The notes under the pieces were generated by a model. It was not told the origin of the DNA, searched no databases, and worked only from the letters and a program-made list of their open reading frames with translations. Source: Plumapathes pennacea (taxonomy: Eukaryota > Cnidaria > Anthozoa > Antipatharia > Myriopathidae). Taken from it: DNA of 64,000 nt. The stretch lies in NCBI GenBank assembly GCA_964036295.1, contig OZ038469.1, positions 3,364,067 through 3,428,066 of the forward strand, in the 5' to 3' direction. A program made the position numbers and the translations under genes. Shown here in pieces: positions 12,165-58,657 of the stretch (position 1 is its first letter; each line of letters begins with the position of its first letter).

Positions 12165-15100
12165 CTAGTCAATGTCCATCCTCTCTGTCAACGTCAAGAA
12201 AAGCTTTATTTACAAATGTCATTTATATAAAGGTCAGTACAGCCTTCCCCAAATAGATCGAGCTGTATTAAAATAATATCTCAATTAGCACCCTGTGAAC
12301 AACTGCATACAAATGGCAGCGCACCTAGGGAAAAATACTAATCTGGAAACACATACTCAAAAAAAAAGAAAAAGTTGAATACCTCGTTCTAGATCATCCC
12401 GTCTTCCAAACAGCTCAACTGCCAGGTCTTGTGTCTCGGTTTTTTGTCGCATCAGCAGGTAAACGTCACTCAAGTTGACACCTTGATCCAGCACGTGAAC
12501 TTCGTTAACAAACGCCGCGTGTGTCTGCATGAGTACCAGCTTCCCGCGGTCATCAAAGCAAGGAGACCCGGATGCACCGAACATCATGCTGGGTTCCATG
12601 AGCGTCTTGCATGGGTGGACAAGATTTGCAAACTGGGGGCGACCGACCAGCCCCTGAACGTCTGGGTGGCTTGGAAGTCGTTCCTCACAACACAGGTTCA
12701 CTGTCTTGAACCATCCACTGCAGTGACCAATCAGATGAAACTTATGGCTTTGATTGACATCTTCCAGGCGATTTCCCAGCGCAGGCGGCAGATTATGGTC
12801 ACGTGGTGCTGTGAGTTGTAGCACAGCGACATCCAACTCCTTGCTTGACCACTGCACACCTGGTTCAAGTCGTTCAATCACTTGAACTGTTTCAGTTGAC
12901 TCGTGATAATTGAAACACACCTCAACGAATTGACCAGAAAACGATCTTTCACCGACAAGCCCTGTTGACGTAAGCAAAGATTACCTATAATCAAACACAT
13001 CAATCTCGTTTGATTTCACAATCCCTGAGTCACGTTTGGGTAAGTTCTCCTAACCGCCTCTGAACAAAATGTATGAGTAATGTTGGGAGAATTTCTACTT
13101 TGACCAGATTTAATAACTCAAACGAGAGATCATAAGATAAGTCGGTGTTACTTTTTAGTCCAAATACAACTGATCGTATTTTCAAACAAGTCGGATTAAA
13201 AGAGATGAAGATTTGCTCTTGTCATTTGAAGCCTTGAAAGTGGATTGGTAATTAAGGCTTTAGGTTTTAGAGGTATTCTTTATAAGGGTGTCCTTTGCAC
13301 TTGCTGTAAGCTACATTCACCGGAAAATGACAACTACTAAAGACAGCACACAGATTTTGTTTATCTTATATTGCAAAGAGCAAAGGAGCTGTTATGAAGT
13401 CTGATTGTCAAATCGTCTTCATGTAATTTATTAAAACTGACACGTATTTGTGTGCAAAGTGCAGATCAAACCACTAATATCACAATTTATTTTTAGAACA
13501 GTTCAAGCCGACCTCTACGCGCGCAGAGCATTGTGGTACCCGTTGCGAAAAGCAAAACAAAATTTGTTTTGTCTCACATTTAATGTGAAAAACAGGGACA
13601 TGAGACGGATTCTCGCAAAAAGCGCGTATGCTGAGTAATGTTTTCATTATAAACAATCGAGAAATCACACATCATGTCCTTTTGCCTTCGGGCGAATGAA
13701 CATTTGCAAATGCCGTCTTTCTAGAAAAAACACCAAAGTTCTTCCGACTTACCACAGATATCGGTGACCACGTGAAGGCATGTCATCACGTGACATGGAC
13801 CAACTCGGAACACAGTTCCCGCGTACCAACCAGTGGGCGTCTTTGCACGGATGATCCCCACGGATTTGCAGAGGGCGCCCAACAGAACAACAAACTCGGC
13901 TGAGATTCCTCCGGTGCCCAAACGGCCAAGTCCCACCAGACGGAAGTCCTTGCCTTCTGATTCTGTACTGAGACGCTGGGTGAATCTGTTCAAACATTTC
14001 TTGTGTCGACGAGGCAGAGCAGAAAGGTCTGTTGGAAAACAAGGAAATTGACGTTAATCCCGATGACTAATATGTTTTAACCAACCATGCAATTCGTGAA
14101 ACTTGTCACGATTTATCTTTCTTTCTCATCAATTGAAACATTTTTTTCAATTGACGCTAGCTCCGAAACACTATCTTTAACGACATTCGAGACAAAATCT
14201 TAGCAAAGTTTGAAATACAGGTCTGAAATCATAAATTTGGTACGAAACAGTGCAAGGCTTTTGAAAGCCATGCGGCAAATTCCTGTCTTTTGATGTTTCG
14301 CATTTTTGTTATGGCAGACTATAATTTCCTCACCTTTCACCGGGTACACCAGACAAGACGGCACTTTCATCGTAGCGTCACGCTCGCAGGTCATTTCAGG
14401 ACACCTCTCGGGAAATGGCTCACTCATCCGTCTGCCAGGAAATCTACCCGGCTTACTGATGCCATATTGAAGACAGTGTGGACACAACAGCCAGTTCTCC
14501 CACTTTACACCACGCCACTCGCTCATCACGCTCTTCATCTCCTCATCAAGAGCCTTCAGGACCGCCCAGAGATCACCAATGTCTTGTCCTTCCACTGTCA
14601 GACTAATCACAGTTTCCATGCCTCGAATGACGCGGTGAACCACAAGACGACTTAGGTTGATGTCAGCATACACTCCGTCCTTCCAGTCTATCCGGCTGTT
14701 CTTGTCATGAACATGGCGGTGCAGGCGAACAGCAAACTTCTCATAGAGCGGAGGGCAAATGGACAGAAACTCGTACTCCAGGCTGAAGCGAAGGCATGTC
14801 ACAGCGGGGGGACCAAATAGAATCTGTTGTACCGCTGCAGTGTCCGGGACCCCATCCTTCAAGAACCAGGGGAAGCGAAGGCTAGCCACTTGGCCGTCTT
14901 CATCTGTACGTAGAGGATAACACAAGTCCAAGTGAATGAACAAGTGTATCATAGCATCAAAAACTCTTCCGTCCAATTCCTTGAGTTTCCATAGACACTT
15001 CAACAATTCCCTTGGCATAATTCCTCGTCTAAGCAAATCCATTTTGATTTGCTCAAATTCGCTTGGAGAGAATGTTATTTGAAAGGAGGTGTCCTTGTCG

Positions 15101-18100
15101 TAGGTCAATGATTCTGTTTCTAGCCGCTCTGAGAAGACGGCTTTCAACAGGTTGGTGAGATACTCGGGGTTGTGGAATATAAACTGCGCAAGCTCAGGAG
15201 TGTCGCGGTACCACAGAATGGCGCCGATCGCATTAAAAAACTCCAGAATAGAGCTGACATACTCCTTACGATTAAAGGGCAAAGAAAACATCAAGAACAA
15301 TCTTGCGACATCTTTCGCAATCATCTTGTGTTGCATAAACCATGGTGCTAGTAGTTCTGAAATATCTTCCTTCAACCTCGAGAATCTTGAACGCCTTTCC
15401 ACCAAACTGAAAGCTTCAAAAACCAAATAGGGCTCTTCACACGATAAAGTACTTTGCAGGCTCCTGTACAGTTCTAACCAAGCACGTGGGACTACTTTTC
15501 CTTTCTCATAAACAAGACTCACCAGCTTCTTCCGAAACTCTGGAATGCCCATCATGGTTTCCGACGAAACCACATCGATGCTTGGAAGATCCTTACACTG
15601 CAAGCCTTCTCTCTTACATTGCACATCAACATTCGATTCAATGCTCTTACACTTCTCTGACGCCTGGTCCTGCTCGAGCATGTCAGCATGTGTTCCTACT
15701 ATCCTAAGGGTAGCCGTCGGTACACGAGTGAGCAACGTGCTAAGCCAGCTCCCGATGTCTCTGTGGAAGTTATTTCCTGAGAATTCGGCTAAGTTCACCA
15801 CAAGTACAAATATTGCATTTTGATTGACGAAAAGGTGATGTACTATTTTATACCAGTCGTTCCCACCAAAGTCAATCAGAGAAATGCTGAAATTTTTGTC
15901 GTTCTCCTGCAGCTCCCACATGAATCTTTTTAGAACTATCGTCCTGTCCTCCATATCAACACAAGATGAACGGTTGTTGACCATAGTCGTAGCCAGACTT
16001 GTCTTTCCTGCTCCACTAGATCCAAGAAAAACAATCTGCTGGTGTATTAATCTGCCAAGTCGAATATCAGCAAGGTAACTGAAAACAGCTTGTACACCTT
16101 CCTGGCATACTTCGACTGGAGGGATTCTTACCGGGTTCCCTACTAACTCTAATGTTCTTAAATGTGTCAAATTTGTCAGATCAAGGGGGATCTCTCTTAA
16201 TCTATTGCTGCCTAATAAAAGCTCCTCCAGCTGGAACAAATCACAGATTTCTCCAGGCATATCTTTCAACTTGCAACAACTTAGATGCAGCGTTTGAAGG
16301 TGCTTTAAATTTGAAAAGCCAACAGGGAGGTCTTTTACTGGATTGCCATTCAGATACAACACTTCGAGTGAAATCAACTGAGTAATGTCTGTCGGTATCT
16401 CTGTCAACCCACAATTATAAATAGCCAGTATTCGAAGTTGTTTCAAGTTTGAGAACCCAGCGGAAAGGTTCTTTACTGGGTTGTCATGCAGACACAACTC
16501 TTCCAGTGACGTCAACTGAGTGATGTCTGTCGGTATCTCTGTCAACCCACAATTGCCAATATAAAGCATTCGAAGTTGCTTCAAATTTAAAAAGCCAGCA
16601 GGGAGGTTTTTTACTGGATTGTCATTCAGATACAACTCTTCCAGTGACGTCAACTGAGTGATGTCTGTCGGTATCTCTGTCAACCCACAATTGCCAATAT
16701 AAAGCTTTCGAAGTTGCTTCAAATTTAAAAAGCCAGCAGGGAGGTTTTTTATTGGATTCTCATTCAGATACAACTCTTCCAGTGATGGCAGCTGAGTGAT
16801 GTCTGTCGGTATCTTTGTCAAACCACAGTTATCAATAGCCAGTATTCGAAGTTGCTTCAAATTTAAAAAGCCAACAGGGAGGTTTTTTACTGGATTGTCA
16901 TTGAAATGTACCTCTTCCAGTGACGTCAACAGAGTGATGTCTGTCGGTATCTCTGTCAACCCACAATTGTTAATGTAAAGCTTTCGAAGTTGTTTCATGT
17001 TTGAGAACCCAGCGGGAAGGTTCTTTACTGGGTTGCCATGCAGACACAACTCTTCCAGTGACGTCAACTGAGTGATGACTGTCGGTATCTCTGTCAACCC
17101 ACAATTGTTAATGTGAAGCTTTCGAAGTTGCTTCAAATTTGAAAAGTCAGCAGGAAGGTTCTTTACTGGATTGTCATATAAATACAACTCTTCCAGTGAC
17201 GTCAACTGAGTGATGTCTGTCGGTATCTCTGTCAACCCACAATTATAAATAGCCAGTAATCGAAGTTGTTTCATGTTTGAGAAGCCAGCGGGAAGGTTCT
17301 TTACTGGGTTGTCGTGCAGACACAACTCTTCCAGTGACGTCAACTGAGTGATGTCTGTCGGTATCTCTGTCAACCCACAATTGCCAATATAAAGCATTCG
17401 AAGTTGCTTCAAATTTAAAAAGCCAGCAGGGAGGTTTTTTACTGGATTGTCATTCAGATACAACTCTTCCAGTGACGTCAACTGAGTGATGTCTGTCGGT
17501 ATCTCTGTCAACCCACAATTGCCAATATAAAGCTTTCGAAGTTGCTTCAAATTTAAAAAGCCAGCAGGGAGGTTTTTTATTGGATTCTCATTCAGATACA
17601 ACTCTTCCAGTGACGGCAGCTGAGTGATGTCTGTCGGTATCTTTGTCAAACCACAGTTATCAATAGCCAGTATTCGAAGTTGCTTCAAATTTAAAAAGCC
17701 AACAGGGAGGTTTTTTACTGGATTGTCATTGAAATGTACCTCTTCCAGTGACGTCAACAGAGTGATGACTGTCGGTATCTCTGTCAACCCACAATTGTTA
17801 ATGTGAAGCTTTCGAAGTTGCTTCAAATTTGAAAAGTCAGCAGGAAGGTTCTTTACTGGATTGTCATATAAATACAACTCTTCCAGTGACGTCAACTGAG
17901 TGATGTCTGTCGGTATCTCTGTCAACCCACAATTATAAATAGCCAGTAATCGAAGTTGTTTCATGTTTGAGAAGCCAGCGGGAAGGTTCTTTACTGGGTT
18001 GTCATGCAGACACAACTCTTCCAGTGACGTCAACTGAGTGATGTCTGTCGGTATCTCTGTCAACCCACAATTGTTAATGTAAAGCTTTCGAAGTTGCTTC

Positions 18101-21100
18101 AAATTTGAAAAGTCAGCTGGAAGATTCTTTACTGGATTGTCATATAAATACAACTCTTCCAGTGACGTCAACTGAGTGATGACTGTCGGTATCTCTGTCA
18201 AACCACATTTATCAATAGCCAGTATTCCAAGTTGCTTCAAATTTAAAAAGCTAGCAGGGAGGTTTTTTACTGGATTGTCATTCAAATATACCTCTTCCAG
18301 TGATGTCAACTGAGTGATGTCTGTCGTTATCTCTGTCAACCCACAATTGCCAATGTAAAGCATTCGAAGTTGCTTCAAATTTAAAAAGCCAGCAGGGAGG
18401 TTTTTTACTGGATTGTCATTCAGATACAACTCTTCCAGTGACGTCAACTGAGTGATGTCTGTCGGTATCTCTGTCAACCCACAATTGCCAATGTAAAGCA
18501 TTCGAAGTTGCTTCAAATTTAAAAAGCCAGCAGGGAGGTTTTTTACTGGATTGTCATTCAGATACAACTCTTCCAGCGACGTCAACTGAGTGATGTCTGT
18601 CGGTATCTCTGTCAAACCACAATTATAAATAGCCAGTAATCGAAGTTGTTTCATGTTTGAGAAGCCAGCGGGAAGGTTCTTTACTGGGTTGTCATGCAGA
18701 CACAACTCTTCCAGTGACGTCAACTGAGTGATGTCTGTCGGTATCTCTGTCAACCCACAATTGTTAATGTAAAGCTTTCGAAGTTGCTTCAAATTTGAAA
18801 AGTCAGCTGGAAGATTCTTTACTGGATTGTCATATAAATACAACTCTTCCAGTGACGTCAACTGAGTGATGTCTGTCGGTATCTCTGTTAACCCACAATT
18901 GCCAATATAAAGCATTCGAAGTTGCTTCAAATTTAAAAAGCCAGCAGGGAGGTTTTTTACTGGATTGTCATTCAGATACAACTCTTCCAGTGACGTCAAC
19001 TGAGTGATGTCTGTCGGTATCTCTGTCAAACCACAATTGTTAATGTAAAGCTTTCGAAGTTGCTTCAAACTTGAAAAGCCAGCAGGGAGGTTTTTTACTG
19101 GATTATCATTCAGATACAACTCTTCCAGTGACGTCAACTGAGTGATGGCTGTCGGTATGTCTGTCAACCCACAATTGCTAATGTTAAGCTTTCGAAGTTG
19201 CTTCAAATTGGAGAAGCCGGCGGGGAGGTTTTTTACTGGATTGTCATTCAGATACAACTCTTCCAGTGACGTCAACTGAGTGATGTCTGTCGGTATCTCT
19301 GTTAACCCACAATTGCCAATATAAAGCATTCGAAGTTGCTTCAAATTTAAAAAGCCAGCAGGGAGGTTTTTTACTGGATTGTCATTCAGATACAACTCTT
19401 CCAGTGACGTCAACTGAGTGATGTCTGTCGGTATCTCTGTCAACCCACAATTGTTAATGTAAAGCTTTCGAAGTTGCTTCAAACTTGAAAAGCCAGCAGG
19501 GAGGTTTTTTACTGGATTGTCATTCAGATACAACTCTTCCAGCGACGTCAACTGAGTGATGTCTGTCGGTATCTCTGTTAACCCACAATTGCCAATATAA
19601 AGCATTCGAAGTTGCTTCAAATTTAAAAAGCCAGCAGGGAGGTTTTTTACTGGATTGTCATTCAGATACAACTCTTCCAGTGACGTCAACTGAGTGATGG
19701 CTGTCGGTATGTCTGTCAACCCACAATTGCTAATGTTAAGCTTTCGAAGTTGCTTCAAATTGGAGAAGCCGGCGGGGAGGTTTTTTACTGGATTGTCATT
19801 CAGATACAACTCTTCCAGTGACGTCAACTGAGTGATGTCTGTCGGTATCTCTGTTAACCCACAATTGCCAATATAAAGCATTCGAAGTTGCTTCAAATTT
19901 AAAAAGCCAGCAGGGAGGTTTTTTACTGGATTGTCATTCAGATACAACTCTTCCAGCGACGTCAACTGAGTGATGTCTGTCGGTATCTCTGTTAACCCAC
20001 AATTGCCAATATAAAGCATTCGAAGTTGCTTCAAATTTAAAAAGCCGGCGGGGAGGTTTTTTACTGGATTGTCATTCAGATACAACTTTTCCAATGACAT
20101 CAACTGAGTGATGACTGTCGGTATCTCTGTCAGCCCACAATTGCTAATGTTAAGCTTTCGAAGTTGCTTCAAATTTGAAAAGCCAGCAGGGTTTTTTTTT
20201 ACTGGGTTGTGATTCAGATACAACTCTTCTAGTGACGTCAACTGAGTGATGACTATCGGTATCTCTGTCAACCCACATTTATCAATAGCCAGTATTCGAA
20301 GTTGTTTCAAGTTTGAGAAGCCAGCGGGGAGGTTCTTTACTGGGTTGTCATTCAGATACAACTCTTTCAGTGACGTCAACTGAGTGATGTCTGCAGGTAA
20401 CTCCGTTATTCGACAATTCTTGATACCTAGCTTTTGAAGATGCTTCAAATTTGACAAGCCCTCGAGAAGAAACTTTACTGGGTTATTTGACAAACACAAT
20501 TGTTCGATTGAAGTCAGCTGAGTAATACTTTCTGGAATCTCTGTTATTCCACAGTTTTCAACGTTCAATTGTCGAAGTTGATTTAGATTTAGTAAGGCGT
20601 TGGGAAAACTGTTCATTGGGTTGTCTGATAAATCCAACTCTTCCAATGAAGTCAGTTCGGAGATTTGTGTTTTGATCGCTGTTAAACCACATCCTTTAAG
20701 AGAGAGTTTCTTGAGCTCGTTTAAACTTGACAAATCGTTTGGAAGTCTCTTTAAAGGATTATTCGACAAGTTTAATTCTTCTAATGTTCTCAGTTGACCA
20801 ATGCCCGGACTAATTCCGGTTAATCCACACTTGCACAAATTCAAGGTTTTTAGGTGTTGTATTTTGAATATGTGGGAATGCAAATGATCGATATTATCAT
20901 TGTTCGAGATGTCCAACGTCTTCAGAGTGGTAAGTTTCTGTAAGACTGACACATTCCTTAGTTTGCATCCCTTCAGAACAAGCCCTTGTAAGTTTTTTAA
21001 CTTGGAAAAACTTTCTGGGACATCGGGTATGGGAATGCCGGACAAGTCAAGGACTTCGACTTCTGTCATCATTGACACAGCCTCTGGGACTCTCGTCAAA

Positions 21101-21180
21101 CCACTCTTGCTGAGATCTAGCTTCACTTTCCCAGCAGCGTCGGTTGTTGCCAGACCTCTTAAATCTTCGATTGTCCACAT
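12165..21180 (-). CDS. LRR-Roc-COR-trypsin-like protease fusion, gene 1 (about 2,570 aa)
   Basis: Predicted cytosolic multidomain GTPase/protease. The large exon runs from acceptor TTTTTGCAG (exon begins 21213, ATG 21180 at MWTIEDLRG) to donor AAAG|GTGAGG at 14334. Exon 2 is 14028-13753, exon 3 is 12961-12383, and a proposed last exon at 12184-12165 ends in TAG. All junctions are phase 1. Residues about 20-1690 are LRRs with about 29 near-identical 46-residue doublets. A Roc GTPase follows (P-loop GSSGAGKTS near 1716, switch DFGGNDWY, THAD), then a COR-like region (AIGAILWY), then CPHC/CPEMTC (about 2228-2260), possibly zinc-binding. The protease triad is His2368 (CLHVV), Asp2418 (LDVAVLQL) and Ser2505 (GASGSP). 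If the donors are not used, the large frame ends at 14200 without the protease. The Roc-COR part resembles MFHAS1/LRRK-type Roco proteins. The last 20-nt coding exon is the weakest part of the model. Confidence 0.82.
16390..20400 (-). repeat. 138-bp coding tandem repeat (LRR doublets), gene 1
   Basis: About 29 head-to-tail units of 138 bp encode two LRRs each, on the pattern LTSLEELYLNDNPVKNLP followed by a cysteine-bearing repeat (NCGLTEIPTDITQ). Many units are almost identical at DNA level, which points to recent expansion or conversion. Flanking LRRs toward both ends (20400-21150 and about 16150-16390) are diverged single-copy repeats. Confidence 0.95.
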
Positions 21181-21692: not shown

Positions 21693-21726
21693 CCCCCCCC
21701 CCCCCCCACCCACACACACACACACA
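21693..21726. repeat. Poly-C followed by (CA)n
   Basis: Simple repeat at an equivalent place in three units. The others are about 35839-35879 and 59451-59487. The gene 3 unit lacks it. Confidence 0.9.
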
Positions 21727-28428: not shown

Positions 28429-31400
28429 TTACTCGTTTCTAGAAAGCAATATCCCACTTCTTTTAGACAGAGAGATAGAGAGGTGTTTTCCGGTAGAAAT
28501 ACCTGGCTCATTTCCAAACAGTTCAATGGCCAGCAGCTGCTGTGACTCTTGTACCATTTGTCGATACACATCCATCAAGTTAACACCTTGGTCGAACACG
28601 TGTTCCTCACCAAGAAAGAAACCTCGCACTTCCATGAGTACCAGTTTCCCACTGTCATCAAACCATGGAGACCCGGATGCTCCATACGTCATGCTAGCTT
28701 CCAGGAGAGTCCGACGACGGTCGGAAAAATCCCGCCTTACATCACGGGAGAGCAGTGAGAACCTGGGGTCGGCTTGAAAAGCAATCACATCTTGATGGTC
28801 GGAAGGTCGCGCTTCACAGCAGAGGTTCACTGCCTTGTGCCCTCCATTGCAGTGACCAATCAAATGAAACTTCAAGTACTGATTGACGTTACACAGGAGA
28901 TGTCCCAAACTTGGTGGGAGGCTATCATCATGTGATGCTCTGAGCTGCAACACAGCCACATCCAAAGCCTCGTTGTACCACAACACACCAGGCTCAAGGT
29001 GTAGGATCAGTAGATCTCCTTGTCGAATTGACGGGTGGTGATTGAAACAAACTTGGACCAAAGGACTGGAGAGTGCTACTTCCCCAACCAGCCCTGATAA
29101 TAACAAAAAAATGAAACAATTCGGAAAAACGTGACCCTCGCAACACAGTATTGAGTAGTAACAACAAAGTTGTTTTTCATCAGATAAGCACCCACCGTTT
29201 TGTGGAAAACGGTCAGATCATAATCTCCGCGGTCGTCAGGCAAAACAGTTTACTTTTCTTTGAGACAATAATTGGTGAACATCCGAATCCATAAGTCAAC
29301 AAATGCCTTTAAATTCGGCGGCGATATTTTGTGATATCATAACACACAGCTGAAAACCAGATTGCTGTCATAAGAAGAGTCATGTAGTATCATATCTCCA
29401 CCTACCATAGATCCCCCTGACCACGTGATAGCAAGTAACCACGTGATGTGGGCCAACGCGGAACACTGTGCCAGTGTAGGAAGCTGTAGGAGTTTCCGCA
29501 CGAATGATTCCCACGGAATGGCTGTAGTCAATCAGCTTATCAACAAACTCCACTCCGATTCCTCCAGTCTGCAAACGACCAAATCCTTCAATTTGGATCC
29601 CCTTTCTTCTTGATTTGTCTTTCAACTGCTGGGTAAATTTGTCCAGACTTTTCTTGTGTCGGTCAGGCAGCGAACTCAGGTCTGACGAGAAAACGGATGT
29701 TTGCTTAAATCTCCACAAAGATGAAGATGACACACAACGGAAGCTATCATAATAGCAAAAGTAGTTAATCTTAACGGTATTAATTCGCGTAAAGGGATCG
29801 TGAGAGCGGCTATATCATCACGATTGCATAAATCCAGACAGAAGGCTTACATTTCACTCTTAATTACAATAATATCTAATTAACATAATCCCAAGTGCAT
29901 CACTTACTACAGCAGAATCACCTCACCTTTAACAGGGTACACCAGGCAAGAGGGCACTTTCACGTCAAAATGACTTCCACAAGTCATGCCAGGGCAATTC
30001 TGGGGATACAGCTTACTTAGCATTCCTCCACTGAATCTACCAGGCTTTCTGAAGCAATGCTGAAGGCAGTATGGACACAAAAGCCAGCTCTCGCACTTTA
30101 TGCCAGGCCACTCGCTCATCACACTCTTCTCTCCGCTCTTCATCTCCTTGTCAAGAGCCGTCAGTACCGTCCAGAGATCACCGATGTCTTCTCCTTCCAC
30201 TGTCAGACTAATCACAGTTTCTGTGCCTCGAATGACGCGGTGAACCACAAGACGGCTTAGGTTAATGTCAGCATACACTCCGTCCTTCCAATCTATCCGG
30301 CTGTTCTTGTCATGAACATAGCGGTGCAGGCGAACAGCAAACTTCTCATAGAGTGGTGGAGGGCAGATAGAAAGGAATTCATACTCCAGAGTAAAGCGAA
30401 GGCATTCCACGGCGGGGGCACCAAATACAATCTGCTGTACGGCTGTAGTGTCCGGGACCCCATCCTTCAAGAACCAAGGAAAGCAAAGGCTGGCCACTGG
30501 CTCGTCTTCATCTGTACTATAACACAAGTCCAATTTCTTGAACAAGTAAATCATAGCATCAAAAACTCTTCCGTCCAGGTCCTTGTGTTTCCATAGACAA
30601 TTCAACAATTCTCTTGACATAATTCCTTGTCTAAGCAAATCCATTTTGACTTTCTCAAATTTGCTTGGGGAGAATGTTATTTGAAACAAGGTGTTCTTGT
30701 CGTAGCTCAATGATTCTGTTTCCAGACGCTCTGAGAAGACGGCTTTGAACAAGTTGGCCAGGAAGTCAGGGTTGTGGAATACATACTGCTTAAGCTCAGG
30801 AGGTTCGCGGTACCACAGAATGGCGCCAATTGCGTGAAAAAACTCCAAACGATGAAATGCTTCTTCTGTTGAAACTTTCTTCACCAACTTTATTCGCCTA
30901 ACCTCTTTATCTGCTGCTTCGACATCTTCCAAAGCCAAATAAGGCTTTCTTCTCATGGAGCGACTTCGCAGGCTCTTGTACAATTCTAACCAAGCAGATG
31001 GGACTACTTTTCCTTTCTCACAAACAAGGTTCACCAACTTCTTCCGAAACTCTGGAATTCCCATCATGGTTTCCGACGAAACCACATCGATGCTTGGAAG
31101 ATCCTTACACTGCAAGCCTTCTCTCTTACACTGCACATTAACACTCGATTCGATGCTCTTACACTTCTCTGACGCCTGGTCCTGTCCGAGCATGTCGGCA
31201 TGTGTTCCTACTATCCTAAGGGCAGCCGTCGGTACACGAGTGAGCAACGTGCTGAGCCAGCTCCCAATGTCTCTGTGGAAGCTCTTTTCTGAGAATTCAG
31301 CTAAATTCACTACAAGTACAAAGATTGCATTTTGTTCGACAAACAGATGGTGCACGACTTTATACCACTCGTTCCCACCAAAGTCAATCACAAAAATGCA

Positions 31401-34400
31401 CAGGTTCTTGTCTTTTTCCTGCAGCTCCCACGTGATTCTGTCTATAACTATCGTCCTGTCCTCTACGTCGACACAGGACGGTATGTTGTTGACCAGTGTT
31501 GTAGCCAGACTTGTTTTTCCTGCTCCACTAGAACCAAGGAAGACAATCTTCTGGTGTACTGATCTGCCATATCGAACATCAACAAGATAACTGAACACAG
31601 CTTGTATCCCTTGCTGGCATACTTCAATTGGAGGGATTTGTGTCGGATTAGGCAACATCTCTAATGTTCTTAAATGTTTCAGTTTTGTGAGATTACAAGG
31701 GATCTCCCTTAATTGATTGTTGCCTAGATGAAGCTCGTCCAGTTCCAGTAAATCACAGATTTCAACAGGCAAATCACTCAACGAGCAACCCTTGAGATGC
31801 AGCTGTCGAAGTTTCTTCAAATTTGAGAAGTCCGTGGGGAAGCTCTTTACTTGATTCCAATTCAGACGCAACTCTTCAAGTGACGTCAACTGAGTGACGT
31901 CTGTCGGTATTTCTGTTAACCCACAACGCTCAATAATCAGTTTTCGAAGATTCTTCAAATTTGAGAAGCCCGTGGGGAAACTCTTTAGTGCATTCGCACT
32001 CAGATCCAACTCTTCAAGTGACGTCAACTGAGTAAGGTCTGTCGGTATTTCTGTCAACTCACAATCCCATATATCCAGCTTTCGAAGTTGCTTCAAATTT
32101 GAGAAGTCCGTGGGAAGGCTCTTTACTGAATTTAAGCCCAGACGCAACTCTTCAAGTGACGTCAACTGAGTGAGGTCTGTCGGTATCTCTGTCAACCCAC
32201 AACGCTCAATATTCAGCTTTCGAAGTTTCTTCAAATTTGAGAAGCCCGTGGGGAGGCTCTTTAGTGGATTCCAATGCAGATCCAACTCTTCCAGTGACGT
32301 CAACTGAGTAAAGTCTGTCGGTATCTCTGTCAACTCACAATCCCATATATTCAGCTTTCGAAGTTGCTTCAAATTTGAGATGTCCGTGGGGAGGCTCTCT
32401 AGTGGATTGTTGGACAGATCCAACTCTTTAAGTGACGTCAACTGAGTGACGTCTGTCGGTATCTCTGTCAACCCACAATGCTCCATATTCAGCTTTCGAA
32501 GTTTCCTCAAATTTGAGAAGCCCGTGGGGAGGCCCTTTAGTGGATTCGAACCCAGATCCAACTCTTCAAGTGACGTCAACTGACTGAAGGCTGTCGGAAT
32601 CTCTGTCAACTCATATTTCCGCATATTTAGCTTCCGAAGTTGCTTCAAATTTGAGAAGCCCGTGGGGAGGCTCTTTACTGAATTGTCACCCAGATCCAGC
32701 TCTTCAAGTGATGTCAACTGAGTGAGGTCTGTCGGTATCTCTGTCAACTCACAATCCCGTAAATTCAGCTTTCGAAGCTGTTTCAAATTTGAGAAGCCCA
32801 TGGGAAGGTTCTTTAGTGGATTCCAATGCAGATCCAACTCTTCAAGTGACGTCAACTGAGTGATGTCTGTCGGTATCTCTGTTAACCCACAATCCCATAT
32901 ATTAAGCTTTCGAAGTTGCTTGAAATTTGAGAGGTCCGTGGAAAGGCTCTTTAGTGGATTCGAACTCAGATCCAACTCTTCAAGTGACGTCAACTGAGTG
33001 ACGTCTGTCGGTATCTCTGTTAAACCACAACGCTCAATAATCAGCTTTCGAAGTTTCTTCAAATTTGAGAAGCCCGTGGGGAGGCTCTTTAGTGGATTTG
33101 AACCGAGATCCAACTCTTCAAGTGACCTTAACTGAGTGATGTCTGTCGGTATCTCTGTCAACCCACAATCCCATATATTCAGCTTTCGAAGTTGCTTCAA
33201 ATTTGAGCAGTCCATGGGGAGGCTCTTTAGTGGATTGTTGGACAGATCCAACTCTTCAAGTGACGTCAGCTGTGTAAGGTCTGTCGGTATTTCTGTCAAC
33301 TCACAATCCCATATATCCAGCTTTCGAAGTTGCTTCAAATTTGAGAAGTCCGTGGGGAGGCTCTCTAGTGGATTGTTGGACAGATCCAACTCTTCTAGTG
33401 ACGTCAACTGAGTGATGCCTGTCGGTATCTTTGTCAACCCACAACGCTCCATATTCAGCTTTCGAAGTTTCTTCAAATTTGAGAAGCCCGTGGGGAGGCC
33501 CTTTAGTGGATTCGAACCCAGTTCCAACTCTTCAAGTGACGTCAACTGAGTGACGTCTGTCGGTATCTCTTTCAACTCACAATCCCGTATATTCAGCTTT
33601 CGAAGTTTCTTCAAATTTGAGAAGCCCGTGGGGAGGCCCTTTAGTGGATTCGAACCGAGATCCAACTCTTCTAGTGACGTCAACTGAGTGATTTCTGTCG
33701 GTATCTCTGTCAACTCACAATGCTCCATATTTAGCTTTCGAAGTTTCTTCAAATTTGAGAAGCCCGTGGGGAGGCCCTTTAGTGGATTCGAACCCAGTTC
33801 CAACTCTTCAAGTGACGTCAACTGAGTGACGTCTGTCGGTATCTCTGTCAACTCACAATCCCGTATATTCAGCTTTCGAAGTTTCTTCAAATTTGAGAAG
33901 CCCGTGGGGAGGCCCTTTAGTGGATTCGAACCGAGATCCAACTCTTCAAGTGACGTCAACTGAGTGATTTCTGTCGGTATCTCTGTCAACTCACAATGCT
34001 CCATATTTAGCTTTCGAAGTTTCTTCAAATTTGAGAAGCCCGTGGGGAGGCCCTTTAGTGGATTCGAACCCAGTTCCAACTCTTCAAGTGACGTCAACTG
34101 AGTGACGTCTGTCGGTATCTCTGTCAACTCACAATCCCGTATATTCAGCTTTCGAAGTTTCTTCAAATTTGAGAAGCCCGTGGGGAGGCCCTTTAGTGGA
34201 TTCGAACCGAGATCCAACTCTTCAAGTGACGTCAACTGAGTGATTTCTGTCGGTATCTCTGTCAACTCACAATGCTCCATATTTAGCTTTCGACGTTTCT
34301 TAAAATTTGAGAAGCTCATGGGGAGGCTCTCCACTGGATTTACACCCAGATCCAACTCTTCAAGTGACGTCAACTGAGTGACGTCTGTCGGTATCTCTGT

Positions 34401-41040: not shown

Positions 41041-41041
41041 T

Positions 41042-44000
41042 CTAGTCAATGTCCATCCTCTCTGTCAACGTCAAGAAAAGCTTTATTTACAAATGTAATT
41101 TATATAAAGGTCAGTACAGCCTTCCCCAAATAGAGCTGTATTAAAATAATATCTCAATTAGCACCTTGTGAACAACTGCATACAAATGGCAGCGCACCTA
41201 GGGAAAAATACTAATCTGGAAACACATACTCAAAAAAAAAAAAAAATTGAATACCTTGTTCTAGATCATCCCGTCTTCCAAACAGCTCAACTGCCAGGTC
41301 TTGTGTCTCGGGTTTTTGTCGCATCAGCAGGTAAACGTCACTCAAGTTGACACCTTGATCCAGCACGTGAACTTCGTGAAAAATCGCCGCGTGTGTCTGC
41401 ATGAGTACCAGCTTCCCGCGGTCATCAAAGCAAGGAGACCCGGATGCACCGAACGTCATGCTGGGTTCCATGAGCGTCTTGCATGGGTGGACAAGATTTA
41501 CAAACTGGGGGCGACCGACCAGCCCCTGAACGTCTGGGTGGCTTGGAAGTCGTTCCTCACAACACAGGTTCACTGTCTTGAACCGTCCACCGCAGTGACC
41601 AATCAGGTGAAACTTGTGGCTTTGATTGACATGTTCCAGGCGATTTCCCAGCGCAGGCGGCAGATTATGGTCACGTGGTGTTCTGAGTTGTAGCACAGCG
41701 ACATCCAACTCCTCGCTTGACCACTGAACACCTGGTTCAAGTCGTTCAATCACTTGAACTGCTTCAGTTGACTCGTGATAATTGAAACACACCTCAACGA
41801 ATTGACCAGAAAACGATCTTTCACCGACAAGCCCTGTTGACGTAAGCAAAGATTACCTATAATCAAACGCACCAATCTCGTTTGGTTTCACAATCCCTGA
41901 GTCACGTTTGGGTAAGTTCTCCTAACCGTCTCTGAACAAAATGTATGAGTAATGTTGGGAGAATTTCTACTTTGACCAGATTTAATAACTCAAGCGAGAG
42001 ATCATAAGATAAGTCGGTGTTACTTTTTAGTCTAAATACAACTGATCGTATTTTCAAACAAGTCGGATTAAAAGGGATGAAGACTTGCTCTTGTCGTTTG
42101 AAGCCTTGAAAATGAATTGGTAATTAAGGCTTTAGGTTTTAGAGGTATTCTTTATGAGGGTGTCCTTTGCACTTACTGTAAGCGACATTCACCGGAAAAT
42201 GACAACCACAAAAGACAGCACACAGCTTTTGTTCACCTTGTATTGCAAAGAGCAAAGGAGCTGGTATGAAGTCTGATTGTCAAATCGTCTTCATGTAATT
42301 TATTAAAACTCACACGTATTTGTGTGCAAAGTGCAGATCAAACCACTAATATCACAATTTATTTTTAGAGCAGTTCAAGCCGACCTCTACGCGCGCAGAG
42401 CATTGTGGTACCCGATGCGAAAAGCAAAACAAAATTTGTTTTGTCTCACATTTAATGTGAAAAACAGGGACATGAGAACGATTCTCCCAAAAAGCGCGTA
42501 TGCTGAGTAATGTTTTCATTATCAGCAATCGAGAAATCACACATCATGTCCTTTTGCCTTCGGGCGAATGAACATTTATAAATGCCGTCTTTCTAGGAAA
42601 AACACCAAAGTTCTTCCGACTTACCGCAGATCTCGGCGACCACGTGAAGGCATGTCATCACGTGACATAGACCAACTCGGAACACAGTTCCCGCGCACCA
42701 ACTAGTGGGCGTCGTTGCACGGATGATTCCCACGGATTTGCAGAGGGTGCCTAACAGAACGACAAACTCGGCCGAGATTCCTCCGGTGCCCAATCGGCCA
42801 AGTCCCACCAGACGGAAGTCCTTGCCTTCTGATTCTGTACTGAGAGGCTGGGTGAATCTGTCGAGACATTCTTTGTGTCGCCGAGGCAGAGCAGAAAGGT
42901 CTGTTGGAAAAAAAAAACGGAATTGACGTTAATCCCGATGACTAAATATGATTTAACCAACCATGCAATTAGTGAAACTTGTCACGACTTATCTTTCTTT
43001 CTCATCAATTGAAACATTATTTTCAATTGACGCTAGCTCCAAAACACTATCTTTAACGACATTCGAGACAAAATCTTAGCAAAATCTTAGCAAAGTTTGA
43101 AATACAGGTCTGAAATCATATATTTGGTACGAAACAGTGCAAGACTTTTGAGAGCCATGCGGCAAATTCCTGTCTTTTGATGTTTCGCATTTTTGTTACG
43201 GCAGACTATAATTTCCTCACCTTTCACCGGGTACACCAGACAAGACGGCACTTTCATCGTAGCATCACGCTCGCACGTCATTTCAGGACATGTCCGGGGA
43301 AATGGCTCACTTATCTGTCTGCCAGGAAATCTACCCGGCCTACTGATGCCATATTGAAGACAGTGTGGACACAACAGCCAGTTCTCCCACTTTACACCAG
43401 GCCACTCGCTCATCACACTCTTCATCTCTTTGTCAAGAGCCGTCAGTACCGTCCAAAGATCACAGATGTCTTCTCCTTCCACCGTCAGACTAATCACTGT
43501 TTCCTTGCCTCGAATGACGCGGTGAACCACAAGACGGCTTAGGTTGATGTTAGCATACACTCCGTCTTTCCAGTCTATCCGGCTTTTCTTGTCATGAACA
43601 TGGCGGTGCAGGCGAACAGCAAACTTCTCATAGAGCGGAGGAGGGCAAATGGACAGAAACTCGTACTCCAGGCTGAAGCGAAGGCATGTCACAGCGGGGG
43701 GACCAAATAGAATCTGTTGTACCAGTGCAGTGTCCGGGACCCCATCCTTCAAGAACCAGGGGAAGCGAAGGCTAGCCACTTGGCCGTCTTCATCTGTACG
43801 TAGTGGATAACACAAATCCAAGTGCACGAACAAGTGTATCATAGCATCAAAAACTCTTCCATCCAATTCCTTGTGTTTCCATAGACACTTCAACAATTCC
43901 CTTGGCATAATTCCTTCTCTAAGCAAATCCATTTTGATTTGCTCAAATTCGCCTGGGAAGATTGTTGTTTGAAAGGAGGTGCCCTTGCCGTAGCTCAGTG

Positions 44001-46137
44001 ATTCTGTTTCCTGACGCTCTGAGAAGACGGCTTTGAACAGGTCGACCAGGAACTCGGGATTGTGGAATACATACTGCGCAAGCTCGGACGTTTCGTGGTA
44101 CCACAAAATGGCGCCGATTGCGTGAAGAAACTCCAGAATATATCTGATATGCTTCTGACGACCAAAGATACTGTCCGTCACCCATGTTACCAAAGACATT
44201 CCTCGCCTAGCCTCTTTATCTGCTGCTTGGATATCTTCCAAAACCAAATAAGGCTTTTTTCTCATGGAGGGACTTCGCAAGCTCTTGTACAATTCTAACC
44301 AAGCAGGTGGGACTACTTTTCCTTTCTCACAAACAAGGCTCACCAGCTTCTTCCGAAACTCTGGAATGCCCATCATGGTTTCCGACGAAACCACATCAAT
44401 GTTTGGAAGATCCTTACTCTGCAAGCCTTCTCTCTTACACTGCACATCAACACTTGATTCGATGCTCTTACACTTGACTGACGCCTGATCCTGTCCGAGC
44501 ATGTCGGCATGTGTTCCTACTATCCTAAGGGCAGCCGTCGGTACACGAGTGAGCAGCGTGCTGAGCCAGCTTCCAATGTCTCTGTGGAAGTTATTTTCTG
44601 AGAAATCGGCTAAATTCACAACAAGTACAAATATTGCATTTTGTTCGACAAATAGATGGTGCACAACTTTATACCAGTCGTTTCCACCAAAGTCAATCAC
44701 TGAAATGCAGATGTTCTTGTCGTTCTCCTCCAGCTCCCACGTGATTATGTCCACAACTATCGTCCTCTCCTCTGCACCAACACAAGATGACTCGTTCTTG
44801 ACTAGTGTTTTAGCTAGACTTGTTTTTCCTGCTCCACTAGAACCAAGCAAGACAATCTTTTGGTGTACAGACCTGCCGTATCGAACATCAACAAGATAAC
44901 TGAACACAGCTTGCACCCCTTGCTGGCATACTTCGCTTGGAGGAATTTGCATGGGATTAGGCAACATCTCTAATGTTCTTAAATGTTTCAGTTTTGTGAG
45001 ATTACAAGGGATCTCCCTTAATTGATTGTTGCCTAGTTGAAGCTCGTCCAGTTGCACTAAATCACAGATTTCTTCAGGCAAATCACTCAACGTGCATTTC
45101 GTGAGACGCAGCTTTCGAAGTTCTTTCAGATTTGAGGAAACCGTGGGGATGCTCTTTACTGGATTCGAACTCAGATCCAACTCTTCCAGTGACGTCAACT
45201 GAGTGATGTCTGTCGGTATCTCTGTCATTCCACATTTCTTGAAATCCAGCTTTTGAAGTTTCTTCAAATCAGAGAAGCCTACGGGGAGGCTCTTTATTGG
45301 ATTCCAACTCAGATCCAACTCTTTCAGTGACGTCAGCTGAGTGATATCTGTCGGTATCTCTGTCATTCCACAATTCTTGAATTCCAGCTTTTGAAGTTGC
45401 TTCAAATCAGAGAAGCCCACGGGGAGGCTCTTTACTGGATTCCAACTCAGATCCAACTCTTTCAGTGACGTCAACTGAGTGATGACTATCGGTATCTCTG
45501 TCAACTCACAACCCCGTATAATCAGCTTTCGAAGTTTCTTCAAATTTGAGAAGCCCACGGGGAGGCTCTTTACTGAATTGAAACTTAGATACAACTCTTC
45601 AAGTGACGTCAACTGAGTGAGGTCTGTCGGTATCTCTGTCAACCCACATTCCCACATATTCAGCTTTCGAAGTTTCGTCAAATTTGAGAAGCCTGTGGGG
45701 AGGCTCTTCACTGAATTGTTACTCAGATCTAACTCTTCCAGTGAAGTCAACTGAGTGAAGTCTGTCGGTATCTCTGTGAACCCACAACGCTCCATATTCA
45801 GCTTTTGAAGTTGCTTTAAATTTGATAAGCCATCGGGAAGATTCTTTACTGTGTCATTGCTTGAGATGTCCAATGTCTTCAGAGTGGTAAGTTGCATTAA
45901 GACTGATACATTCTTTAGCTTGCATCCCTTTAGAACAAGCTCTTGTAAGTTTTTTAACTTCAAGAAACTTTCTGGGATATCAGGTATGGGAATGCCTGAC
46001 AAGGCAAGGACTTCGACTTCCGTCATCATTGACACAGCTTCTGGGACTCTCATCAAACCACTATTGCTGAAGTCTAGTTTCAGTCTCCCAGCAGTGTCTC
46101 TTGTTACCAGACCTCTTAAATCTTCGACTGTCCACAT
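41042..46137 (-). CDS. LRR-Roc-COR-trypsin-like protease fusion, gene 3 (about 1,260 aa)
   Basis: Large exon from 46170 (acceptor TTTTGCAG), ATG 46137 (MWTVEDLRG), donor AAAG|GTGAGG at 43221. Exon 2 is 42900-42625, exon 3 is 41833-41255 (donor AAG|GTATTC), and the proposed last exon 41061-41042 ends TAG. Only about 5 LRR doublets. Compared with genes 1 and 2, several N-terminal LRRs are missing exactly after LDISSND, consistent with an in-frame deletion. Roc P-loop GSSGAGKTS is near residue 430, with DFGGNDWY and THAD, then the COR-like region and CPHC/CPEMTC. The triad is His1058, Asp1108 and Ser1195. Exon 2 is open throughout although it has no ATG, as expected for an internal exon. Introns (320 and 791 bp) and exon 3 are nearly the same as in gene 1, which suggests recent exchange. 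Confidence 0.85.
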
Positions 46138-47166: not shown

Positions 47167-47167
<1 letters not shown>

Positions 47168-47322
47168 GAAAGATTACCTGGTTTGCATACCTAAACATTA
47201 AATTTTTCTAAACCAAGCTGGTATACAACTTGATGCAAGTATTCCTACACAACCCCAAGTCATAAACAAAGGTATGCAAAAAAGCGTATGTGAAGCTATT
47301 TGGTAGTTGATGATAGTGCATG

Positions 47323-51955: not shown

Positions 51956-51959
51956 GCAT

Positions 51960-53840: not shown

Positions 53841-53842
53841 TT

Positions 53843-56800
53843 CTAGTCAATGTCCATCCTCTCTGTCAACGTCAAGAAAAGCTTTATTTACAAATGTCAT
53901 TTTTATAACGGTCAGTACAGTCTTCCCCAAATAGAGCCGTATTAAAATAATATCTCAATTAGCACCTTGTGAACGACTGCATACAAATGGCAGCGCACCT
54001 AGGGAAAATACTAGTCTGGAAACACACACACACAAAAAGCAACGGCTATGGAGAACCACAGTCAGCTTATTCGGGTTGATGACGTCACGAATGGTCCGCT
54101 GATCCAGGGATTTGTATGGGAGATTTTCAAATTACGTTTTACGCATGAAAATAATTAATATTACTGTTAAAATCCGTCTAAAAACAGAAAGAGTTCTTAA
54201 TTGCCGCTTATGATGACCTTCGAGGCGAGTTAGCGCCGATTTAGCGATCTCCTCGAAAGTTATCATAACGGCCTACGGGCATTAGATAGTATTATATTCA
54301 CGCGTAAAACGAGATTTGAAAGTCCCCCATACAATTCCCTATTGGCGGATCAGTCGTGACGTCATCAGCCCGTATTGGCTGCCTGTTTAAAAGAATGATG
54401 AAATCCTATGAATGTTGAATACCTCGCTCCAGATCATCCCGTCTTCCAAACAGCTCCACTGCCAGGTCTCTGTGTTCTCGTCGCATCAGTCGATAAACGT
54501 CACTCAAGTTGACAGCTTGATCCAGCACGTGAACTTCGTTAACAAACGCCGCGTGTGTCTGCATCAGTACCAATTTCCCGTGGTCATCAAAGCAAGGAGA
54601 CCCGGATGCGCCGAACGTCATGCTGGGTTCCATGAGCGTCTTGCATGGGTGGAAAAGATTAGCAAACTGGGGGCGACCGACCAGTCCCTGAACATCTGGG
54701 TGGTTTGGAAGTCGTTCCTCACAGCACAGGTTCACTGTCTTGAACCATCCATTGCAGTGACCAATCAGGTGAAACTTATGGCTTTGATTGACATCTTCCA
54801 GGCGACTTCCCAACGCAGGCGGTAGATTATGGTCACGTGGTGCTCTAAGTTGTAGCACAGCGACATCCAACTCCTCGCTTGACCACTGAACACCTGGTTC
54901 AAGTCGTTCAATCACTTGTACTGCTTCCGTTGACTCGTGATAATTGAAACACACCTCAGCTGATTCACCAGACAACGATCCTTCACCAACAAGCCCTAGT
55001 GATGTAAGCAAAGATTATCGTTAATTCCTGAGCCACGCTTGGGCTAAATTCTCTCAACCTTACCTGAACAAAATGTGTGAGTACTGTTGGAGGAATTTCT
55101 AGTTTGACCAGATTTAATAACTCAAGCGAGAGATCTTAAGATAGGTCGATATTACTTTTTAGTGGTGATATTTCATTATTAGTAATCGAGCATCATACAT
55201 AACATGTCCATTTTCCATGAAGTGAATGAATATTTGCAAATATCGTCTTTCTAGTAAAAACACCAAAGTTCTTCCGACTTACCGCAGATCCCGGCGACCA
55301 CGTGATGGCATGTCATCACGTGACATGGGCCAACTCGGAACACAGTTCCCGCGTACCAACCTCCAGTGGACGTCTTTGCACGGATGATCCCCACAGATTT
55401 GCACAAGGTGCCTAACAGAACGACAAACTCGGCTGAGATTCCTCCGGTGCCCAAACGGCCAAATTGCACCAAACGGAATTCCTTTCCTTTCCATTCTGTA
55501 CTGAGACGCTGGGTGAATCTGTCCAGACATTCCTTGTGTCGACGAGGCAGAGCAGAAACGTCTGTTGGAAAAAAAAAACGTAAATTAACTAAATATGAAC
55601 TCACCCACCATGCAAAATAATGAAACTTGTCACGAAGATTTATCTTTCTTTCTCGTGAACATTATTTTTAACGATATTCGAGGCAAATCTCAGCAAAGCT
55701 GGTATATGTTTTCTTGTAGAAGCCAGGAGAAAAACAGTCATCGAATCTTGACATCCCAACAAGATTTACCTTGGACTTAGACCTTAGAATTGAAGAATTT
55801 TGCATGCGGTAATTCCTGTCTTTTGAAATTTTGCATTTTTGTGATGGCAGACTATAATTTCCTTACCTTTCACGGGGTACATCAGACAAGACGGCACTTT
55901 CATCGTATCATCACGCTCGCACGTCATTTCAGTACACTTCTCGGGAAATGGCTCACTCTGCATCTGGCTGCCGGGGAATTTATCCGGCTTACTGATGCCA
56001 TATTGAAGACAGTGTGGACACAAAAGCCAGTTCTCCCACTTTACACCAGGCCACTCGCTCATCACGCTCTTCATCTCCTCATCAAGAGCCGTCAGTACCG
56101 TCCAGAGATCACCAATGTCTTGTCCTTCCACTGTCAGACTAATCACAGTTTCCATCCCTCGAATGACGCGGTGAACCACAAGACGGCTTAGGTTAATGTT
56201 AGCATACACCCCGTCTTTCCAGTCTATCCGGCTCTTCTTGTCGTGAACATGGCGGTGCAGGCGAACGGCAAACTTCTCATAGAGCGGAGGAGGGCAAATG
56301 GACCGGAACTCGTACTCAAGACTGAAGCGAAGGCATCCCCTGTCGGGGGGACCAAATAACATCTGCTGTATCGCTGTAGTATCTGGGACCCCATCCATCA
56401 AGAACCAGGGGATGCGAAGGCTAGCCACTTGGCCGTCTTCATTTGTACATAGAGAATAACACAAGTCCAGGTGCATGAACAAGTGAATCATAGCATCCAA
56501 AACACTTTCGTCCTTGTGTTCCCATAGAAACTTCAACAATTCCCTTGGCATAATTCCTTGTCTCAGCAAATCCATTTTGACTTGCTTGAGTTTGCTTTGG
56601 GTGAATGTTTTGTGAAAGGGAGTGTCCTTGTCGTAGCTTAAAGATTCTGTTTCTAGACGCTTTGAGAAGACGGCTTTTAACAGGTCGGTCAGGAACTCGG
56701 GGTTGTGGAATACATACTGCGCAAGTTCAGGAGTGTCGCTGTACCACAGAATTGCGCCAATTGCGTGAAAAAACTTCAAAATGGATTTGATTTTTTTCTC

Positions 56801-58657
56801 ACGACCAAAGACTACTCCTGTGCAACCTTTCGTCACACATGTTACCAAACACTTTCCTCGCCTAACCTCTTTATCTGCTGCTTCGACATCTTCCAAATCC
56901 AAATAAGGCTTTGTTCTCATAGAGGGACTTTGCAAGCCCTTGTACAATTCTAACCAAGCAGGTGGCACTAATTTTCCTTTTTCACAAACAAGGCTCACCA
57001 GCTTCTTCCGAAACTCTGGAATTCCCATCATGGTTTCCGACGAAACCACATCGATGCTTGGAATATCCTTACACTGCAAGTCTTCTCTCTTCCATTGCTC
57101 ATCAACACTCGATTCGATGCTCTTACACTTCTCTAAAGCCTGGTCCTGCTTGAGCATGTCGGCATGTGTTCCTACTATCCTAAGGGTAGCCGTCGGCACA
57201 CGAGTGAGCAACGTGCTGAGCCAGCTCTCGATGTCTCTGTGGTAGTTCTTTTCTGAGAATTCGGCTAAGTTTACCACAAGTAAAAATATTGCATTTTGTT
57301 CAACGAATAGATGGTGCACAACTTTATACCAGTCGTTCCCACCAAAGTCAATCAAAAAAATGCACAGGTTCTTCTCTTTTTCCTGCAGCTCCCACGTGAT
57401 TCTGTCTATAACTATCGTCCTGTCCTCTACGTCGACACAGGACGGTCTGTTGTTGATCAGTGTTGTAGCAAGACTTGTTTTTCCTGCTCCACTAGAACCA
57501 AGGAAGACAATCTTCTGGTGTACAGACCTGCCATATCGAACACCAACAAGATAAATGAACACAGCTTCCATCCCTTGCTGGCATACTTCAATTGGAGGGA
57601 TTTCCATCGGATTAGGCAACATCTCTAATGTTCTTAAACGTTTCAGTTTTGTGAGATTACAAGGGATCTCCCTTAATTGATTGTTGCCTAGTTGAAGCTC
57701 GTCCAGTTGCACTAAATCACAGATTTCTTCAGGCAAATCACTCAACCTGCAGTCCGTGAGACGCAGCTTTCGAAGTTTCTTCAAATTTGAGAAGCCCACG
57801 GGGAGGCTCTTTACTAATTGATTCCAACTCAGATCCAACTCTTCCAGTGACGTCAACGAAGTGATGTCTGTGGGTAACTCTGTCATTCGACAATTCTTGA
57901 TATCCAGCTTTTGAAGTTTCTTCAAATTAGAGAAGCCCACGGGGAGGCTCTCTACTGGATTCCAACTCAGATCCAACTCTTTCAATGACGTCAACTGAGT
58001 GATGACAGTCGGTATCTCTGTCAACTCACAACCCCGTATAATCAGCTTTCGAAGTTTCTTCAAATTTGAGAAGCCCACGGGGAGGCTCTTTACTGAATTG
58101 AAACTTAGATACAACTCTTCAAGTGACGTCAACTGAGTGAGGTCTGTCGGTATCTCTGTCAACCCACATTCCCACATATTCAGCTTTCGAAGTTTCGTCA
58201 AATTTGAGAAGCCTGTGGGGAGGCTCTTCACTGAATTGTTACTCAGATCTAACTCTTCCAGTGAAGTCAACTGAGTGAAGTCTGTCGGTATCTCTGTGAA
58301 CCCACAACGCTCCATATTCAGCTTTTGAAGTTGCTTTAAATTTGATAAGCCATCGGGAAGATTCTTTACTGTGTCATTGCTTGAGATGTCCAATGTCTTC
58401 AGAGTGGTAAGTTGCATTAAGACTGATACATTCTTTAGCTTGCATCCCTTTAGAACAAGCTCTTGTAAGTTTTTCAACTTCAACAAACTTTCTGGGATAT
58501 CAGGTATGGGAATGCCAGACAAGTCAAGGACTTCGACTTCCGTCATCATTGACACATCCTCTGGGACTCTCATCAAACCACTATTGCTGAAGTCTAGTTT
58601 CAGTCTCCCAGCAGCGTCTCTTGTTACCAGACCTCTTAAATCTTCGACTGTCCACAT
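53843..58657 (-). CDS. LRR-Roc-COR-trypsin-like protease fusion, gene 4 (about 1,220 aa)
   Basis: Large exon from 58690 (acceptor TTTTGCAG), ATG 58657 (MWTVEDLRG), donor AAAG|GTAAGG at 55867. Exon 2 is 55561-55283 (one extra codon, TSTGGWYAG), exon 3 is 54995-54423, and the proposed last exon 53862-53843 ends TAG. The 3' intron holds a MITE. Shortest LRR part, about 4 doublets, one of which has an extra residue (SWNQLVKSLP). Roc P-loop GSSGAGKTS is near residue 384, with DFGGNDWY and THAD; the COR-like region and CPHC/CTEMTC follow. The triad is His1017 (CHHVV), Asp1067 and Ser1154 (GASGSP). Intron B is only 287 bp against 791 bp in genes 1 and 3. If the last donor is not used the frame ends at 54406. 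Confidence 0.85.
54063..54381. mobile_element. MITE with about 75-bp terminal inverted repeats
   Basis: Unique to the gene 4 unit. Both ends read inward as CGGG[T/C]TGATGACGTCACGA..., continuing through TTGTATGGG and GTTTTACGC, so the inverted repeats are about 75 bp with scattered mismatches. The interior holds a second inverted pair (TTATGAT...TTCGAGG near 54210-54275), so the whole 320 bp could fold into a nested hairpin. It has no coding capacity. It lies in the last intron, or just past the coding end, of gene 4. Confidence 0.85.

Follow-up and report, generated by a model that had tools for sequence, protein, structure and literature searches.

The window analyzed here, a stretch of 64,000 nucleotides of the Plumapathes pennacea genome (contig C8, positions 3364067–3428066; the genome searched comprised 290 Mb in 24 contigs), contains four minus-strand genes arranged in tandem (58657 to 12383). 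Each consists of a single long exon encoding leucine-rich repeats (LRRs) and the Roc and COR domains of Roco proteins, followed by two exons encoding a trypsin-like serine protease. The initial annotation had described this order, with two phase-1 exons carrying His, Asp, and Ser beginning 245–320 bp after the long exon, and these features were confirmed.

Exon 1 of genes 1–4 (14334–21180, 29927–35312, 43221–46137, and 55867–58657, respectively) starts at a conserved ATG (21180, 35312, 46137, and 58657) approximately 35 bases after an acceptor-like TTGCAG site and ends at a phase-1 donor, and its frame is uninterrupted in all four genes (963 to 2332 aa). The LRRs form arrays of a 138-bp tandem unit, with 30.2 copies in gene 1 (16289–20460), 20.4 in gene 2 (31800–34613), 5.1 in gene 3 (45145–45851), and 4.2 in gene 4 (57764–58351). 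A profile scan for Roc, COR, and Trypsin_2, as proposed in the initial annotation, detected Roc in all four exon-1 proteins (42.9 to 54.8 bits; Pfam cut-off, 27) and, behind it, COR-B (29.5 to 37.4 bits; cut-off, 27), whereas COR-A exceeded its cut-off of 35.3 in three genes and remained below it in gene 1 (27.9). The Roc domain of gene 4 matched that of LRRK2 at 4.9e-12. An AlphaFold model of gene 4 exon 1, based on four window sequences, was too poor for use (predicted local distance difference test score [pLDDT], 44.9). At the end of exon 1, COR-B is followed by a Cys-rich tail (CPHC...C...C; e.g., 14335–14530) that has no Pfam name, is common to the Death-domain sister genes described below, and looks like a zinc-binding element.

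The catalytic His is carried by exon 2 (13753–14028, 29406–29681, and 42625–42900 in genes 1–3, 276 nt each; 55283–55561 in gene 4, 279 nt), which is in phase 1 at both ends, and the catalytic Asp and the Ser of a GASGSP motif are carried by exon 3 (12383–12961, 28503–29093, 41255–41833, and 54423–54995). The intervening introns measure 305, 245, 320, and 305 bp (intron 1) and 791, 312, 791, and 287 bp (intron 2) in genes 1–4, and every inferred junction is GT-AG and phase 1. The triad spacing of 50 and 87 residues given in the initial annotation held for genes 1, 3, and 4 and failed for gene 2, in which the distances are 51 and 95. Exon 3 alone matched Trypsin_2 below the cut-off in all four genes, and both of the spliced exon 2+3 products that were scanned exceeded it (gene 2, 3.6e-9; gene 1, 2.3e-7). 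The array extends past the window, where a fifth gene was found.

Joining of the LRR-Roc-COR and protease exons

From these junctions and from comparison among copies, we infer that the LRR-Roc-COR and protease parts belong to one spliced gene. Between genes 1 and 2, 60-column windows lying wholly within the protease exons were 45 to 82% identical, and intron windows were 0 to 33% identical when gaps were counted as differences. The ratio of nonsynonymous to synonymous substitution (dN/dS) of the spliced protease was 0.31 to 0.36 in five of the six pairs of window genes, and 0.34 and 0.46 when genes 2 and 4, respectively, were compared with gene 5. These ratios show, at the level of the sequence, that purifying selection acts on the protease.

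A genome search with the joined protein returned 29 matches, corresponding to 15 protease loci: six on C8 (four of them in the window), two on C6, one on C5, five on C4, and one on C1. At 13 of the 15, located on four chromosomes, the protease is immediately preceded by a same-strand COR tail; at C6:10743583 and C1:37731046, no COR was found within approximately 4.4 kb upstream. Twelve copies could be spliced, leaving out C6:10743583, which was not joined, and two loci without a detected exon 2 (L050 and L051), and His, Asp, and Ser were all intact in each of the twelve. Six further copies, among them diverged ones located on other chromosomes, kept the phase-1 donors and acceptors in register. 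No genomic match spanned a junction without its intron, as an intronless copy would.

The same data bear on the alternative that each locus holds two genes, a Roco gene ending at a stop just past the donor and an independent downstream protease with its own start. The exon 1 frame does read through the donor to a stop, and two of the 15 protease loci have no COR in the upstream interval searched. However, the read-through tails vary between genes in which the exons are conserved, the phase-1 junctions keep their register among diverged copies, and the order is maintained at 13 loci. The initial annotation had pointed to a separate start codon for the protease exons as evidence against fusion. 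In seven of the twelve spliced copies, the sole in-frame Met of exon 2 upstream of the catalytic His sits four residues before it, and gene 2 has no in-frame Met before His, so that eight copies offer no usable start; the remaining copies (C5, C4a, C4b, and C4c) contain an additional in-frame Met upstream of His. Considering the splice conservation and the lack of a start codon in most copies, we rejected the two-gene explanation as very unlikely. Splice register, exon conservation, and the COR tail before most protease loci thus favor the fusion proposed in the initial annotation.

Two further observations concern proteases elsewhere in the genome. The window-type copy at C1:37731046 (C1:37730700–37736400) is preceded on its own strand, at a distance of approximately 3.4 kb, by an exon encoding a ZU5 domain (3.4e-7); the effector may here be mounted on a different chassis. 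Approximately 30 more Trypsin_2 frames, mostly complete in a single exon, were found outside the window protease family, amounting to a sizeable complement of trypsin-like proteases of the intracellular type.

Effector exchange, mosaicism, and the LRR face

To describe the wider family, we fetched 20 of the 150 scored genomic Roc matches, chiefly those with long frames. Five of these loci have protease exons, and in 14 of the remaining 15 the Roc match is followed on its own strand by an exon encoding a Death domain (2e-7 to 5.8e-12 in the four scanned by Pfam); neither type of exon was detected at the last locus, L019. Ten of the 14 Death-bearing loci have a shared or comparable tail with a phase-1 donor at the end of the Roc-COR exon; the shared tail was not found in the more distant L024–L027, and the donor count thus covers 10 loci. 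A phase-1 candidate acceptor precedes the Death domain at all 14, several of which also have candidates in other phases. An IQ-TREE phylogeny was built from 19 Roc-COR regions, nine from the 13 COR-tailed protease genes and 10 from the 14 loci with a Death exon. In this tree, a single branch (100/99) separated the nine protease rows from the 10 Death rows, one of which (D_L028) formed a long branch. The simplest account of these sequences would be a single exchange of the output module between Death domain and protease, in either direction. Judging from its Death-bearing members, the family as a whole may contribute to death signaling.

A different pattern was observed for gene 2. Its Roc-COR region differs at synonymous sites by 0.23 to 0.30 from those of genes 1, 3, 4, and 5 and by 0.55 from that of gene 6, located approximately 300 kb away, whereas its protease differs by 0.20 from that of gene 6 and by 0.55 to 0.57 from the others. 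A Roc-COR tree forcing genes 2 and 6 together was rejected (approximately unbiased [AU] test, p = 0.003), and a protease tree forcing genes 1–5 together without gene 6 was rejected more weakly (AU test, p = 0.037); these p-values are favorable, as the groups were defined only once the first trees and the divergences were known. As judged from these divergences, gene 2 is mosaic, combining parts from two lineages, and its switch and effector exons do not have a single shared history.

We also compared 50 type A and 57 type B LRR units, more than half of which come from gene 1 and which are not independent within an array. Amino-acid entropy peaked at positions 3, 5, 7, and 8 of the LxxLxLxxN motif, which form the concave strand. 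Mean entropy at the concave sites was 2.25 versus 0.52 in type A, a difference reached by 1 of 8855 four-site choices, and 1.71 versus 0.64 in type B, reached by 65 of 8855. The ratio of nonsynonymous to synonymous diversity (piN/piS) was greater at concave sites than elsewhere in every set. It exceeded 1 solely in gene 2 type A (2.74), so that general positive selection at the concave sites was not demonstrated.

A second, different arrangement of COR and protease was found by comparing 63 COR-A places with 44 Trypsin_2 places genome-wide. At two loci (L067, C3:1473500–1477200; L068, C3:1153700–1156900), COR-A is followed on its own strand, approximately 2 kb away, by a Trypsin_2 domain; between the COR-A exon (1.6e-12 in L067) and the protease lie more exons without a Pfam name. 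The protease is encoded in one exon (8.6e-15 and 5.2e-15), in whose frame no Met precedes His. Profiles of window exons 2 and 3 did not find this protease, and Roc was not located at either locus. The protease appears to belong to another subfamily. Another COR-A/Trypsin_2 pair, C4:9227741/9232789, has a Death exon between its members. At that locus (L064, C4:9229500–9233900), a Roco gene that includes a Death exon (801–1157) is followed approximately 2 kb on by an intact single-exon trypsin-like frame (3077–4015), in which the sole Met before His is four residues upstream of it; this frame may or may not belong to the Roco gene. A further pair, C2:7455355/7462062, lay outside the fetched loci.

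Within the window and outside the array, the minus strand also carries frames for cytochrome b5 and fatty acid desaturase and a piece of carbonic anhydrase (5845–8475 and 1949–2521).

Protease relatives and proposed function

Comparison of the protease profile with PDB sequences supported the likeness to FAM111 suggested in the initial annotation: FAM111A matched at 1.6e-26, and the next match was at 0.0045. The alignment includes the dimerization helix of FAM111A. The activity of FAM111A is reported to depend on a dimer formed through this N-terminal helix (PMC10920703), and the protein has a role in antiviral defense (PMC9798293, PMC10920703). Vertebrate FAM111 proteins contain two ubiquitin-like (UBL) domains, and soft-coral and lancelet relatives are described as having none (PMC9798293); likewise, no UBL domain was found among the best 25 Pfam matches of each of the four exon-1 proteins, nor in the two spliced proteases.

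More distant relatives were sought in bacteria by one pattern-based, non-exhaustive scan of 84,980 species genomes, which returned six proteins with 23–27% identity, from four cyanobacteria, Hamadaea, and an Anaerolineae metagenome-assembled genome. By Pfam, EAD1 was present in four of the six, EAD8 in one, and neither in one, and no Roc-COR was found in any of them. When the Calothrix protein was modeled (pLDDT, 76.3), FAM111A ranked first among its PDB fold matches (1.2e-11); proteases of the trypsin type, including Deg8 and V8-like ones, followed within approximately 10-fold, so that this fold search alone cannot single out FAM111A. In a PADLOC search, all eight members of alignment A3 matched RT-Protease_XI in its protease portion (best, 3.5e-8); this assignment was rejected, as no reverse transcriptase was seen.

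Together with the Death-domain sisters, the concave LRR differences, and the mosaic gene 2, the bacterial EAD-protease relatives add support for the modular receptor envisaged in the initial annotation. We consider it probable that the window contains a tandem family in which each gene encodes one intracellular LRR-Roc-COR receptor ending in a FAM111-type protease, with proteolytic output and a role in immunity. In such a receptor, the concave LRR face would bind a ligand that varies and probably comes from a microbe or virus; occupancy would alter the nucleotide and dimer state of Roc-COR; and this change would switch the attached protease, which, like FAM111A, may act only as a dimer held by its starting helix. 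The active protease would cut a substrate, leading to defense or cell death, and the output would then need no Death adaptor, unlike that of the sister genes.

Several results weigh against this interpretation. By manual reading of the alignment, the dimer-helix residues of FAM111A are only partly kept, with Val347 corresponding to Val and Val351 to Ile in gene 2 and Gly in genes 1, 3, and 4. The piN/piS ratio at the concave LRR sites is below 1 in gene 1 and the pooled sets (0.46 to 0.67) and in gene 2 type B (0.95). In the closest protease pairs, dN/dS is high on few differences (0.66–0.67 for the near-identical genes 1 and 3, 0.85 for genes 3 and 5, and 1.08 for genes 1 and 5), and constraint on the newest copies is therefore not clear. 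Moreover, L050 (C4:10896746) and L051 (C4:10869930) retain a COR tail and exon 3 and have no detectable His-bearing exon 2, making them candidate protease-dead receptors or relics, and an in-frame stop lies within the COR of C4:10881573. The family thus appears to mix live-looking and decaying members. That the array as a whole consists of recent, largely pseudogenized duplicates of a once-useful gene would fit the missing exons, this stop, and the ratios of the closest pairs, but is scarcely credible against the open exon 1 frames of all four window genes, the intact triads of all twelve spliced copies, and the dN/dS near 0.33 of most protease pairs.

The low piN/piS ratios would also suit a Roco signaling family serving development, trafficking, or stress responses rather than immunity, and the roles reported for known Roco proteins are varied (PMC6337361). 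Nevertheless, differences concentrated on the concave LRR face, arrays of 4 to 30 units, a mosaic gene, and exchange between Death domain and protease are usual in recognition families, and one coral gene, by a single annotation as MFHAS1, is reported to change with symbiont contact (PMC8861010). We regard a non-immune role as improbable. Somewhat less improbable, though still unlikely, is a regulatory protease that frees or destroys the receptor by self-cleavage while the signal exits by another route. Autocleavage of FAM111A that does not require the dimer is documented (PMC10920703); a peptide assay in the same paper also showed a role for FAM111A in cutting other proteins, and the protease of the window genes occupies the site of the output (Death) domain of the sister genes, both of which argue for an effector.

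If the proteolytic-receptor interpretation is correct, the family would provide an animal innate-immune receptor with a built-in protease that could launch defense without recruiting a caspase. Roco proteins, such as LRRK2 and MFHAS1, and FAM111 proteases are both studied in human disease, and the two would be brought under one logic of sensing, GTPase-controlled dimerization, and proteolysis. It would become possible to test directly if a protease that depends on dimerization can be controlled by a Roc-COR dimer, and the Death and protease sisters behind the same exon boundary constitute a natural experiment in effector exchange.

Comparison with known systems

One comparison concerns a peptidase domain, IPR009003, which we take to be the PA-clan S1 superfamily. 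The initial annotation did not recall the LRR-Roc-COR-protease order as described; this order is not new, having already been published for brown algae and other members of the stramenopile, alveolate, and rhizarian (SAR) group. The three members of brown-algal ROCO group 3 are reported to carry IPR009003 at the C-terminus, and other SAR ROCOs likewise end in a peptidase (PMC11378527). Descent is not implied by the shared order. Brown-algal ROCOs are also candidate immune receptors, and the sites identified in them by PAML as positively selected (14, 16, 18, and 19), on the concave LRR face, have a spacing identical to that of positions 3, 5, 7, and 8 in the window genes (PMC11378527). In contrast, their LRRs are encoded on separate exons, whereas those of the window genes lie in one long exon, and the window peptidase is FAM111-type, exchanged with a Death domain, and partly mosaic. 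The same paper counts "forty domain combinations" in animals, which are not itemized in the passages behind this comparison. In the literature searched (titles and openings of abstracts, with few subscription papers), we found no report of a Roco-FAM111 or animal Roco-trypsin fusion, and no paper treating FAM111 and Roco together.

A broader and more tentative proposal can also be made, which we think has somewhat less than an even chance of being right. A Roc-COR chassis with a diversifying LRR face would swap Death domain and FAM111-type protease across a fixed phase-1 intron and mix switch and effector between tandem genes. A COR protein would have acquired a trypsin-like protease on two or more occasions in this genome, and independently in brown algae and other SAR lineages, and Roco-proteases would thus be a recurrent, GTPase-switched counterpart of nucleotide-binding LRR receptors (NLRs) with direct proteolytic output.

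FAM111A and FAM111B have in common with the window proteins the protease domain and its triad, FAM111A being the nearest PDB sequence, and differ in having no LRR-Roc-COR. The bacterial EAD1/EAD8-trypsin effectors resemble the window genes in that a homologous Trypsin_2 protease adjoins an adaptor-like domain in five of the six relatives, and differ in that the EAD is N-terminal and the protease is only 23–27% identical. MFHAS1 and LRRK1/2 share the LRR-Roc-COR core; MFHAS1 stops after COR and LRRK2 has a kinase, and these proteins are not known to carry a protease (PMC6337361). No NACHT or NB-ARC domain was found among the best 25 Pfam matches of each exon-1 protein, in which only nSTAND3 appeared, below the cut-off, on the Roc P-loop. 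By analogy, the window genes may work like NLRs, with an LRR sensor, a nucleotide switch, and an exchangeable effector, but they use a Roc GTPase and COR in place of NACHT or NB-ARC.

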